Source: Serpentinicella alkaliphila
Lineage (GTDB): Bacteria; Bacillota; Clostridia; Peptostreptococcales; Natronincolaceae
Reading direction: 5' to 3'
Assembly (NCBI RefSeq): GCF_018141405.1
Contig: NZ_CP058648.1
Span: 2,371,001 to 2,435,000 of the forward strand
DNA: 64,000 bases
Below, piece after piece: positions 1 through 12,760 of the stretch (position 1 is its first letter; each line of letters opens with the position of its first letter). Made by a program: the position numbers and the translations under genes. Below the pieces are notes generated by a model. That model worked only from the letters and a program-made list of their open reading frames with translations, searched no databases and was not told the origin of the DNA.

Positions 1-702
1 AAAGTAGTTGGTTATAAAGGTGTATGTACTGACGAAATAATTAAATACAATATTAAAGTAGCAAAACATATTTGGTGTAGCCAACCAGAAAACAAGTGCT
101 TCAAATATTTAAGTGGTGAAATATCAAGAGATGAAATAACTAAGTTTTACAATGAAACAAAATTTGAATTCAGCAAGTCTGTTTGTTATGAGAGCCAAAT
201 GTTTGAAATATGGACTGCTGGTGCAGGGGTTACTCAGAATGGTGATGATAAAGGAAAACCTATGTCGCTGAGAAATGTAAAACCAAATAGTTTAGCATTA
301 CTAACCTCTAAACTTCCCTATGCTGATGATAGCGAGAGATTTATTTTTGCTGTATTTCTAATTAATGAAAATTATGAAGGGGATAGTCGAGAAGAAGGAC
401 ATGTAGGAGCAAACCCAAAATATAGATTACATCTATCTCTTGATGAAGCCAAAAAGTTGAAGTTCTGGGATTATTACTTCAATCCTAATAAGCCAGAAAA
501 GATTGTATTTGGAAGTGGATTACATAGATACATAACAGATATACAGGCATCCCAAGTACTAAATAAAATTTGTGAAATAAAGAAAGGGACTTCGGAAGAG
601 AAATTTGCAAAAGAGTTCCTGGAACATTACTGTTTCATCAAAGAATTAGATATTAAAAATATACCAACACCAAATGGTGCATTACAAAGGACGATGGGGT
701 GA
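1..702 (+). CDS. Unrecognised protein, 5' end outside the window
   Basis: The frame is open from the first base of the window to a TGA ending at 702, so an internal ATG at 199 is probably not the start and the gene begins upstream. The visible 233 residues show no membrane segment or signal peptide. Residues after the Trp-Thr-Ala-Gly-Ala-Gly stretch (around 69-74) run through a SLALLTSKLP strand and an IFAVFLINENYEG strand, then a FWDYYFNPNKPEK segment and a GSGLHRYITD segment. The composition suggests a compact alpha/beta domain. I do not recognise the family and assign no function. The next gene starts 8 bp downstream, so the two are probably co-transcribed. Confidence 0.7.
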   Translation, partial: KVVGYKGVCTDEIIKYNIKVAKHIWCSQPENKCFKYLSGEISRDEITKFYNETKFEFSKSVCYESQMFEIWTAGAGVTQNGDDKGKPMSLRNVKPNSLALLTSKLPYADDSERFIFAVFLINENYEGDSREEGHVGANPKYRLHLSLDEAKKLKFWDYYFNPNKPEKIVFGSGLHRYITDIQASQVLNKICEIKKGTSEEKFAKEFLEHYCFIKELDIKNIPTPNGALQRTMG

Positions 703-709
703 TATTGAT

Positions 710-1327
710 ATGCCGAAGAAAAAATGCCCAGCATGTGGATCAACAGAAACGGTTAAAATTTTATATGGAATGCCATCATATGAAGCTTTCGAATTAATGA
801 AACGTGGAGAAATAGTGTTAGGGGGGTGTTGTGTTTCAGACAATGATCCAACCAGACAATGTAAAACATGTGGACAAGATTTTGGATTTGTCGATACATT
901 TAAGATACTTGGAATGACATCCTTAGAATTCTATGTAGGGGGATATTTTGGAGATTCCCACTTTGTGTATATTAATGGGAAGAGAAAAAATAAATTAATA
1001 AGGTATGGTAAGACTCCAGGTGGAATGTCGGTAGATTTGAAACATCCCAAAAATGAAGTTAACTTTCATCCAGATATTTTATTAAAGGAAATTACACTAA
1101 TACCAGAACAATGGATTACTTTTGCAGAGGAAATAGCTGCTTTGGAAGTATCATGTTGGAAGGATAGTTACTTTGATGATTACGTATGTGATGGAACTCA
1201 GTGGCGCCTAACTATTAGATTTCCTAATCGTGAAAAGATTAGTAAGAATGGAAGCAATGATTACCCACCATACTGGAATAGATTTATAAAAATTATGAAA
1301 AAGTACATAGGTGAAGATATAGGTTAA
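710..1327 (+). CDS. Zinc-ribbon domain protein of unknown function
   Basis: A 205-residue protein. It opens with CPACGS (Cys6, Cys9) and has a second pair CKTCGQ (Cys51, Cys54), the four-cysteine spacing of a rubredoxin-like zinc ribbon. The rest, about 150 residues, is polar and mixed alpha/beta with no motif I recognise. I chose ATG 710 because GGGGTG lies 8 nt before it and the first CxxC then sits at the N-terminus. The frame is open back to 674 but that would put a VHYKGRWGD leader before the ribbon. It follows the preceding partial gene by 8 bp and is followed by a convincing terminator. A nucleic-acid or regulatory role is possible but not shown. Confidence 0.7.
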   Translation: MPKKKCPACGSTETVKILYGMPSYEAFELMKRGEIVLGGCCVSDNDPTRQCKTCGQDFGFVDTFKILGMTSLEFYVGGYFGDSHFVYINGKRKNKLIRYGKTPGGMSVDLKHPKNEVNFHPDILLKEITLIPEQWITFAEEIAALEVSCWKDSYFDDYVCDGTQWRLTIRFPNREKISKNGSNDYPPYWNRFIKIMKKYIGEDIG

Positions 1328-1358
1328 TAGTAATGTAGAGAAATACCATATAATCAGA

Positions 1359-1402
1359 AGATAGAGGAGATTACATAAAGTCAATCACCTCTATCTTTTA
1401 TT
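1359..1402 (+). terminator. Rho-independent terminator after the zinc-ribbon gene
   Basis: AGATAGAGG at 1359-1367 pairs with CCTCTATCT at 1388-1396, extended by GATT/AATC after a single-base mismatch, and is followed by a T-rich run. It ends the transcript of the two genes to its left and separates them from the non-coding region to its right. Confidence 0.75.
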
Positions 1403-1429
1403 GTATTCCCACCACCCACCCTAGAAATA

Positions 1430-2075
1430 CTGGGGTCAACAACCTTTTGTCTATACCTAATCATCCACTAAGGGATAAATTTTAATTTTCTAATGTAATT
1501 CTATCATTTCATTCACTATACAAAAGATCGTATCTTTCGGGTCATTGTATACGCTCCTTCCACAGACTGCAGCTGATTTCTTAATGGGTATAGGAGAAGG
1601 ACCAAAGTGATATGGCTTGTTATTACCTACGTCCATAAAAGCCATCTTTTTTGCAGGGACTTATATTAACTCAATGGGCTGCAGACTGTTGCAGTCGAGT
1701 GCTATTGCTACCGCACCTTTACAGACTGAAGCACTATAGGGATAAGGTTTAGGGAGCTACAGACTGTTACGGTGGCTAAGGAAGGCTCCGTAGGTCTAGT
1801 CTTCACAGACTGCCTACTTATAGGGGCGCTTCGAGGGAAGAGGCAGACTGTTCCGATTAGGTGTCCACCTTAAGAATCCAATCCCTCAACTAACGTTACA
1901 TAGAGTTAGGAGTATCTAGGGTAAGTTTTTATAGAAGCTGCTCCAACCACTATTTCACTTTCCCTAAATGTCTTGTTTGGGAAACAGTTTTTAGAACTGA
2001 CACTTCGTTTTCCCCAAACGCACATTTAGTGAATAGTTGGAGAACATTTTTGGGGTCATGATATGGAGGGTATAA
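1430..2075. ncRNA. Candidate large structured non-coding RNA (class not identified)
   Basis: About 650 bp without a credible ORF and visibly richer in G+C than the flanks. CAGACTG occurs six times, at 1563, 1682, 1722, 1760, 1806 and 1844; the last five are 38-46 nt apart. Several copies sit in possible hairpins: GACTG-TTG-CAGTC at 1684-1696, and TAGG/CCTA enclosing AGTCT-TCAC-AGACT at about 1791-1817. GGAGC/GCTCC can close another arm at about 1754-1790. At the 3' side a long rod can form from 1941 to 2042: CTCCAAC/GTTGGAG, CTAAATGT/ACATTTAG, GTTTGGG/CCCAAAC and CAGTT/AACTG. The length and complexity recall ornate large RNAs such as OLE, GOLLD or ROOL, but I cannot match it to any of them. 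Strand is uncertain; a T-tract hairpin at 2186-2221 favours plus. Confidence 0.5.
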
Positions 2076-2394: not shown

Positions 2395-3717
2395 GTGAGT
2401 AAAAATACTTGGTACAATAAAGAATTATCCTTCATTAATAACAATATACGATATTATCAGCAGATGATTTTGTTGAGCACAGATCCCTATCAAAGAATGT
2501 TTTATGAAGGTTTACTAAGCAATGAAATGAGACGATTTTATTATAAGCAATGGCACATTAACTGTATGAACAATCCAAGTAACCGGGAGGGAGAAAATAC
2601 ACACGTCAATCAAAGAGAGTTCACTTTGGAAGAGTTGGCTCAATATGATGGTGCCGGGGGGAGACCTGCCTATGTGGCGGTAAATGGAATTGTTTACGAT
2701 GTAAGCTTAGATGCAACCTGGGGTGGGGGTACTCATTTTAGTTTATATGCGGGAAGAGATTTATCTGGAGCCTTTATGGGATGTCATGGCGGTAGAACAG
2801 AGATTTTGAGGAATTTGCCACAAGTTGGAGTGTTAAAGTTAAACGAGATGTCAATAAACTGTCCAATTAGAAATTTAAAAACAATTACAGCTAGAAAGAT
2901 AATGGATCTAGCACTAGAGAAAATCAAAAACGCTAGTGTTAAAAAAGTTAATCTAATCTGGTTAGAAGCAACTGGTTGTGCAGGAAATATCATTTCTTTA
3001 CTCAATGCAGAAAACCCAGATGTCATTTACCTATTAGATCAAATGGTAACGTTAAAATATAACAATAGTCTAATGGCTGCAGAGGGAGAGTCGGCCTTTC
3101 AGCAGTTTTTGGATACTTTAGAGACCGAATTCATTCTAGTAGTTGAAGGGGCAGTAGCAACAAAGGATGAAGGACTATACACAATAATTGCACGATATCA
3201 AGGGGAGTTGGTAACTGCCATGGAGGCAGTGAAAATCGCGGGTGAAAGAGCTAAGTATGTGGTAACAGTAGGGACGTGTGCTTCCTATGGAGGTCCTTCT
3301 GCTGCAAGACCTAACCCTTCCCAAAGTGTTAGCGTACCACAGTTATTAAATAAGGAAGTGATCAGAGTACCAGGTTGTCCTAGTCATCCAGATTGGGCTA
3401 TTGGAACGATTGCTAACCTCATCGCTTTTGGCAAGCCAGAATTAGATGCACAAGGTAGGCCTATAATGTTCTATGGAATTACAATACATGATCAATGTAC
3501 TAGGAGGTCTTATTTTGAAAAGGGCATCTTTGCAACTAAGCTAGGAGATAGAGAATGTATGTTCAAATTAGGATGTCGGGGACCTGTTACTAGAACAGAT
3601 TGTCCTGTGAGACAGTGGAATGGGTATGTAAATTGGCCTATTGAAGACAACACCCCTTGTATTGGTTGTGCACAGGAAAGATTTCCTGACGGGATGGGGC
3701 CCTTTGTTAGATATTAA
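2395..3717 (+). CDS. Cytochrome b5-like / [NiFe]-hydrogenase small-subunit fusion
   Basis: 440 residues in three parts: a polar helical segment (about 8-60), a cytochrome b5-like heme/steroid-binding domain (about 74-148, from REFTLEEL through YVAVNGIVYDVS to LPQVGVL), and a [NiFe]-hydrogenase small subunit (about 180-440). The hydrogenase part has the proximal-cluster segments GTCASYGG and PGCPSHP, the medial/distal cluster ligands (IHDQC, LGCRGP, DCPVRQWN, CIGCAQERF) and no Tat signal, so a cytoplasmic enzyme is expected. The first proximal-cluster motif is CAGN (Cys195, Asn198) where most families have CxxC. GTG 2395 is the start, 5 nt after a GGAGGAG site. It passes electrons between the large subunit's NiFe site and an unknown partner. 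It begins the hydrogenase operon. Confidence 0.85.
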   Translation: MSKNTWYNKELSFINNNIRYYQQMILLSTDPYQRMFYEGLLSNEMRRFYYKQWHINCMNNPSNREGENTHVNQREFTLEELAQYDGAGGRPAYVAVNGIVYDVSLDATWGGGTHFSLYAGRDLSGAFMGCHGGRTEILRNLPQVGVLKLNEMSINCPIRNLKTITARKIMDLALEKIKNASVKKVNLIWLEATGCAGNIISLLNAENPDVIYLLDQMVTLKYNNSLMAAEGESAFQQFLDTLETEFILVVEGAVATKDEGLYTIIARYQGELVTAMEAVKIAGERAKYVVTVGTCASYGGPSAARPNPSQSVSVPQLLNKEVIRVPGCPSHPDWAIGTIANLIAFGKPELDAQGRPIMFYGITIHDQCTRRSYFEKGIFATKLGDRECMFKLGCRGPVTRTDCPVRQWNGYVNWPIEDNTPCIGCAQERFPDGMGPFVRY

Positions 3718-5603: not shown

Positions 5604-5864
5604 ATGCATGACACCTACTTATTAAATAAAATATCACAAGCTCTAAAGGAACTATGCCAGAAGCATAAGCTAGAGAAAATAGAAGCCTTTACTTTGGTAG
5701 TGAACCATCATAGTCATGTTAACGAAGAGAGTCTACGAGAGCACTTACAGAACCATAGTAAGGAACTAATAGGAGATAATTTATTGATAAAATTGCAAAG
5801 AGAAGATATAGAAGAGCAGACAGCTATTATTCATAGTCTCCAGGGTGAGACCTTTGAACCATAA
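5604..5864 (+). CDS. HypA-like nickel chaperone lacking the zinc domain
   Basis: 86 residues beginning MHDTYLL, with the Met-His-(Asp/Glu) N-terminus through which HypA binds nickel. The pattern of two helices and strands (KIEAFTLVVNHHSHVNEESL, then IGDNLLIKLQRED) follows the HypA N-terminal domain. HypA is normally about 115 residues and has two CxxC pairs forming a zinc ribbon; there is only one cysteine here, so the zinc domain is missing. AGGAGGG 6 nt upstream makes this ATG clear. It lies between the endopeptidase and hypF, as expected for a maturation factor. The stop overlaps the upstream extension of hypF. HypA assignment rests on the N-terminal domain and context only. Confidence 0.6.
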   Translation: MHDTYLLNKISQALKELCQKHKLEKIEAFTLVVNHHSHVNEESLREHLQNHSKELIGDNLLIKLQREDIEEQTAIIHSLQGETFEP

Positions 5865-12220: not shown

Positions 12221-12330
12221 CTGGGTGATGGGTAAATTTTACTTTAGAAGTAAATATATTTAGTTTGTACAATAAAGGAGTTAGAGGAAGTGTAACAAGC
12301 AATATGCCTTCTTCATATGATTCAGATGAT

Positions 12331-12360
12331 TTGCCACCAACTTGCCACCGCTTTGCCACC
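12331..12360. repeat. Three TTGCCACC direct repeats with 11-bp period
   Basis: TTGCCACC begins at 12331, 12342 and 12353, exactly 11 bp apart, which is one helical turn. A further copy lies at 12581 and an inverted one at 12603. The even phasing suggests binding sites for one protein on one face of DNA, as in integrase arm-type sites or operator arrays. No integrase of that kind is encoded nearby. Confidence 0.7.
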
Positions 12361-12579
12361 CACCCAAAAGTTAAAGGGAACTATAGAAAAGTATAGAAAG
12401 TTCCTATACAATCTTTAGTTCCCTATATTTCAACATTTCAAGAGTATAAAATAATATACTATGATATATACATTGATGATAAAATAAACCCATGGAATAA
12501 CCGCTCATGTGGAGTGTGTCGCTAAAATATCTAGGATTTAGAAGGGTTTCAGAGGCTATAAAACCAAAAAAGATACTAC

Positions 12580-12611: not shown

Positions 12612-12760
12612 CTTATTTATTGGATGTATAATTGAGTAGATTTATGGCGAATTAATATCTTAAATAGATTGCAAAAACCCGCAATTACCTCATCGCTTCC
12701 TTAACGTATATTTAGTTAATTGTTGGGGGATCTTGAGTCTCGTAATTCTATTAGCTGACA

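Follow-up and report, generated by a model that had tools for sequence, protein, structure and literature searches.

The window analysed here, the whole stretch of 64 kb, carries close to its left end a block without open reading frames, flanked by a convergent plus-strand gene with CxxC motifs on one side and a hydrogenase operon on the other. No ORF of at least 60 aa is present on either strand between 1327 and 2395, and the GC fraction, 0.44-0.47 at 1600-2050, falls to 0.28-0.35 in most of the flanking intervals (700 to 2649), so that the lack of ORFs and the GC enrichment reported in an earlier note on this DNA are both borne out. Homology, iterated profiles and the module map place the conserved element between about 1357, where a 5' hairpin lies, and 2045, with the minus strand likely, which shifts and lengthens the span of 1430-2075 first given to it. 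The segment 2108-2395, upstream of the hydrogenase operon, was considered as part of the element and rejected, because genomes without an element at this place have similar sequence ahead of their hydrogenase operon. It is 70-81% conserved in several such genomes, its portion 2108-2238 recurs at other loci (G015 and G017), and it may have a role of its own as a leader or regulatory region. The gene at 2395-3717 encodes a small subunit of the NiFe-hydrogenase type that is extended at its N terminus by what resembles a cytochrome b5-like domain. Farther along, 12330-12480 holds a repeated TTGCCACC and an inverted repeat (GGGAACTATAGAAAAGTATAGAAAGTTCC); this stretch is similar to sequence preceding the hydrogenase operon of G011 (L079, about 5680-5810) and is possibly another repeat family.

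The most visible feature of the element is the exact heptamer CAGACTG, which starts at 1563, 1682, 1722, 1760, 1806 and 1844 and is found nowhere else in the window on either strand; 2.9 occurrences are expected in 64 kb counting both strands, versus six observed within 288 bases on one strand. The heptamer is self-complementary save for its middle base, and it pairs with itself around one mismatch. The earlier note was right that the six copies are identical, but they do not merely fall in hairpins here and there: all of them pair in twos as the helix arms of three hairpins, 1563 with 1682 (enclosing a further hairpin), 1722 with 1760, and 1806 with 1844. The rod that had been described beyond them is also real, its nested helices and the closing helix being kept in 19 full copies, and it is one helix stack of the 160-nt D domain. 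The features are collected in Table 1. Profiles give the usual module order as T-Q-A-B-C-D-M-N-P-Q, of which the window copy has T-Q-A-B-C-D; longer relatives reach about 2 kb by adding M, N, P and a second Q beyond D, that is, on the 5' side of the RNA.

Table 1. Features of the element and its surroundings, in positions of the window.
Feature	Position	Strand	Description
Convergent neighbour gene	674..1327	plus	217 aa, CxxC motifs, matches phrog_24571; outside the RNA
Whole conserved element	1357..2045	minus (probable)	modules T-Q-A-B-C-D in plus orientation, from homology and module map; as a minus-strand RNA, D would be the 5' side and T the 3' side
T module	1357..1446	minus	hairpin 1360-1374/1381-1395, then conserved GGGTC/ACAACCTT segment
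Q module	1430..1574	minus	profile match; at both ends of longer relatives
A module	1551..1697	minus	helix 1562-1573/1678-1689 from CAGACTG copies 1 and 2; encloses the A hairpin
Six CAGACTG heptamers (minus: CAGTCTG)	1563..1850	minus	exact motif scan
A hairpin	1610..1647	minus	variable stem, one bulged base, YUAU/AUAR; 24 copies aligned
B module	1708..1779	minus	helix 1721-1732/1756-1767 from CAGACTG copies 3 and 4; 33 copies aligned
C module	1798..1870	minus	helix 1805-1815/1841-1851 from CAGACTG copies 5 and 6; 12 copies, module profile
D domain (rod)	1882..2044	minus	closing helix 1883-1892/2034-2044; rod 1960-1991/1999-2033
D side hairpin	about 1900-1912/1941-1953	minus	within the D domain
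Second, decayed copy	12662..12728	minus	only the 3' half of the D domain

The evidence for structure is strong. The region 1357-2060 folds better than its dinucleotide shuffles, with z scores of -4.25 on the minus strand and -3.82 on the plus strand, and covariation, which the earlier note had proposed as a check, is strong in three separate parts of the element. In the D domain, 36 of the 48 pairs are changed on both sides (153 doubly changed cells versus 39 in shuffled alignments), covariation is 0.224 versus 0.083 with none of 500 shuffles reaching it, and 92% of the cells are paired, a value that drops to 35-45% when the partner is slid along; these counts lean towards structure, since the D alignment was fitted to the model. 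The B hairpin, aligned with MAFFT, has a covariation of 0.501 versus 0.192 (0/500 shuffles) and 62 doubly changed cells versus 17, and the A hairpin reaches 0.627 versus 0.196 (0/500), with 62 such cells versus 22. The aligned copies are related to one another, so the 0/500 values are not to be read as probabilities; the slid controls keep this relatedness and yet fall far below the real pairing. Seven of the 15 pairs of the T module, which is present at 13 places in the examined loci, also show double changes. Conservation extends to positions outside the regular helices: a U.U mismatch in the B module (A.A on the plus strand) is kept in 32 of 33 copies, and the loop of the A hairpin reads GGACGU(U/A)AGGUA on the minus strand and is conserved. 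The region is thus free of ORFs, conserved, and marked by compensatory changes across many helices, as a large structured non-coding RNA would be.

Paired arms of this kind could also form in DNA, and an unlikely alternative is that the elements act as folded single strands or cruciforms, serving as recombination or cassette boundaries in variable islands. The scarcity of G-U pairs in D first raised this suspicion: hand-picked D helices hold 7 G-U versus 18 A-C in 896 cells, compared with 177 to 6 in RNase P. This argument was dropped after a control in which RNase P helices chosen without G-U gave 14 G-U to 6 A-C, which removed most of the contrast and shows the rarity to be largely an artefact of selection. 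What still speaks for a DNA structure is that the conserved helices are mostly Watson-Crick, that the elements are grouped in islands together with methyltransferase and restriction genes, that partial duplications flank genes in G009 (L023) and G011 (L031), and that folds of single sequences (in sliding windows), measured against shuffles, favour neither strand (9 of 18 elements), whereas those of RNase P do. The cassette-boundary idea itself is anecdotal, as it rests on two duplications, and neither an integrase nor a transposase is constant among the tallied neighbours. In G009 (L023:5663-9001), a truncated D and a second C-D copy flank two phrog_888-like genes, which look like an insertion into the element or a capture by it, and in G011 (L031) two genes lie between two T ends. 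The consensus folds, in contrast, clearly favour the minus strand, as a DNA structure would not. Consensus energy is lower on that strand in eight of eight modules; for T, A, D and Q, as for the B hairpin, the difference is larger than in any of 40 column shuffles, and the true strand is likewise the lower one for the controls RNase P and c-di-GMP-I. Furthermore, unpaired D positions are purine-rich only on the minus strand (A+G 58% versus 42%), and two closing pairs of D in the window copy are U-G when read as minus and C-A if read as plus. Promoter-like sites around all elements are not above chance on either strand, and no terminator-like U run follows the T hairpin on the minus strand. Since the minus strand gives the more stable consensus fold for every module, the RNA is probably read from it; the evidence for strand is moderate, and a minus-strand RNA is most likely, and favoured over a DNA structure.

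Homologues at 71-77% identity occur in distinct genera of related anaerobic bacteria, the nearest to full length being that of Natronincola peptidivorans (G012), which aligns over 1382-2043 at 71%; homology also extends to G009, G003, G004, G011 and G019. A covariance model of the D domain (R1; E 7.8e-37 on the window copy) has 26 matches in eight of the 20 sampled Natronincolaceae genomes, and one of the B hairpin (R2; E 6.5e-12 on the window copy) has 51 matches in exactly the same eight. R1 has no match in 388 genomes of the class sample outside Natronincolaceae, and R2 none in 289 further genomes of the order, of which 277 fall outside the family, although the larger genome searches use stricter filters, so that weak distant relatives could escape them. 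An exact-pattern scan of 84,980 genomes returned two genomes already in the sample and four contigs without demonstrated relationship, in Crocinitomix, Bacillota, Bacteroidaceae and Pseudomonas records. The element was not found in phage or plasmid records. The single viral contig with a match (IMG/VR) is the chromosome region of G009 itself, a predicted viral contig where the copy lies near the edge and is separated from the prophage genes by defence-type genes. Most carriers have several copies, with fragments, shortened copies and a varying number of modules. The decayed second copy of the window matches the profile at E 1.1e-11 and 1.7e-5 and is not detected by R1; it lies a few hundred bases from an apparent IS21-like transposase gene (about 13010 onward).

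REP/BIME are multi-copy intergenic mosaics of palindromic modules, and the element is likewise multi-copy, intergenic and built of palindromic modules. It could therefore be asked whether the copies are non-autonomous mosaic repeats of this kind, or of the MITE kind, spread by a transposase and without a dedicated RNA function, a reading less probable still than a DNA structure. The several copies per genome (R1 finds nine in G011 and four in G003), the variable module number with fragments and truncated copies, and the confinement to one family agree with it. The element is, however, much larger than REP/BIME, its consensus fold is strand-specific and its modules keep a fixed order in most copies. 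In addition, unpaired loops are conserved across genera (GGACGUUAGGUA), compensated helices remain intact in copies at about 70% identity, one locus order is common to two genomes (see below), and neither target-site duplications nor terminal repeats are apparent by eye.

The surroundings of the elements suggest what such an RNA might accompany. Type I and II methyltransferases and restriction subunits are abundant among the ORFs within 5 kb of about 30 elements, as is an M15 peptidase that matches phage endolysins. The M15 gene, the IDISNKV gene and genes for membrane proteins form an endolysin/holin-like operon, divergent from an ORF with a LexA DNA-binding domain whose end adjoins T in several loci; the LexA-like ORFs beside units of M15 operon and element belong to one close subfamily. 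The M15 gene is present in all eight genomes with the RNA versus one of the 12 others in the family (Fisher test by hand, about 7e-5, which ignores the relatedness of the genomes), and the IDISNKV protein, for which structure and family searches gave nothing, in seven of eight versus none of 12. Of the 16 M15 genes, ten have an element no more than about 3 kb away and six have none nearby, and many elements stand beside methyltransferases without an M15 gene; the operon is therefore not a fixed partner. Elsewhere in the order, outside this family, IDISNKV is encoded next to an amidase or M15 gene, and some of these loci include a holin-like gene as well, but no element is detectable at them. 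The order M15 operon, element, GGDEF, WYL is found in both G012 and G004, which makes this locus probably the ancestral one, the remaining copies having presumably arisen by spread. In S. alkaliphila itself, an interrupted M15 remnant lies about 2.1 kb left of the T end. To the left of the window, at L172:17747-18133, an M15 fragment is fused in frame to an apparent fragment of a tyrosine recombinase, as if a recombination event had hit the gene. A recurrent 105-aa ORF directly upstream of the element (L030:7380-7694, L114:14242-14553, L024:6006-6326 and L025:4850-5161) is a candidate partner protein.

Proximity to genes also brings up the very improbable alternative of a cis-acting leader, attenuator or terminator array controlling a neighbouring gene: on the plus strand the T hairpin is directly followed by TTTTATT, is terminator-like for the gene that ends beside T, as the LexA-like ORFs do in several loci, and could end the convergent gene of the window, but at 700-2000 nt the element greatly exceeds the size of a terminator, its flanking genes vary among copies, and an RNA from the likely strand would converge on the plus-strand gene.

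The element of the window is best explained, with somewhat better than even confidence, as a member, read from the minus strand, of a new Natronincolaceae family of large, structured and modular RNAs. This is in essence what the earlier note had proposed, and it remains the best supported reading, as the rod helices covary among homologues and no strong Rfam match turns the element into a known family. The likely minus strand, the modular build with many copies and the tie to a lysis-like operon go beyond that note. The family is apparently undescribed, no description in Alkaliphilus or Natronincola having been found in the open-access literature. Each module would be a hairpin or a small domain, the whole element would be transcribed from the minus strand and fold as one RNA, and this RNA would act as a free-standing molecule or as an RNP scaffold, not as a leader; a scaffold or an RNA-only assembly is a guess. 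The evidence for a putative function is weak. The linked M15 operon suggests that the RNA is produced or put to use upon induction of the lysis-like cassette, and we infer a role connected with this operon by analogy with GOLLD, which rises in phage lysis. The window copy, being near a broken M15 remnant, may represent an RNA that persists without its partner operon. The most specific version, a giant RNA of 0.7 to about 2 kb that is built of modules, may form RNA-only assemblies and would serve an inducible holin/endolysin-type cassette in the defence islands of Natronincolaceae, is put forward as a doubtful idea. To our knowledge, very few bacterial RNAs this large and complex are known, namely GOLLD, ROOL, OLE and raiA, each of which has raised new questions, and the family would add a new plan, a large RNA that is made of variable numbers of repeated modules and that most carriers have in several copies. 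Its tie to a lysis-like operon offers a testable suggestion as to when the RNA is used, and since at least one carrier, N. peptidivorans DSM 18979, is a cultured isolate, its expression and folding can be tested directly.

Comparison with known RNA families began from Rfam. It gives nothing convincing for the element: GOLLD has no match in the 64-kb window at gathering score, and permissive searches of 1000-2600 (E up to 5) and of four longer relatives (E up to 0.5) give only implausible weak matches to miRNA, ctRNA and the like. RNase P, tmRNA and group I and II introns, excluded earlier for want of their landmarks, have no Rfam or ARAGORN match in the window, and the RNase P genes of the genome are located outside it. 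There are two genes for RNase P RNA, separated by about 23 kb and each scoring above 300 bits (G000:C1:2842407-2842761 and 2866055-2866427). The covariance models of GOLLD, ROOL and OLE match neither the window nor the four relatives, in agreement with the failure of the earlier note to recognise these classes. GOLLD is a structured RNA of more than 800 nt with a conserved 3' region and a less conserved 5' region, which is carried by phages and prophages and increases in amount as the phage lyses its host (PMC12286853). The element likewise combines a conserved core with variable modules and adjoins a lysis-like operon, but it has no sequence or covariance-model similarity to GOLLD, is found mostly as several chromosomal copies per genome, and consists of repeated CAGUCUG hairpin modules. 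The setting of GOLLD, in a phage or prophage and near a tRNA, is not shared either, as there is no match in phage records or plasmids and no tRNA in the 64-kb window. ROOL, an ornate RNA of about 660 nt with no known protein partner (PMC12286853), is similar in size, but its Rfam model does not match the element, which is absent from phage records. OLE differs in that the element lacks an Rfam match to it and is multi-copy and modular. Because the covariance models and the phage and tRNA setting fail, the element is not filed under any of the three; judged by sequence it appears unrelated to GOLLD, ROOL and OLE, and the resemblance to them, as they are described in PMC12286853, is one of kind.
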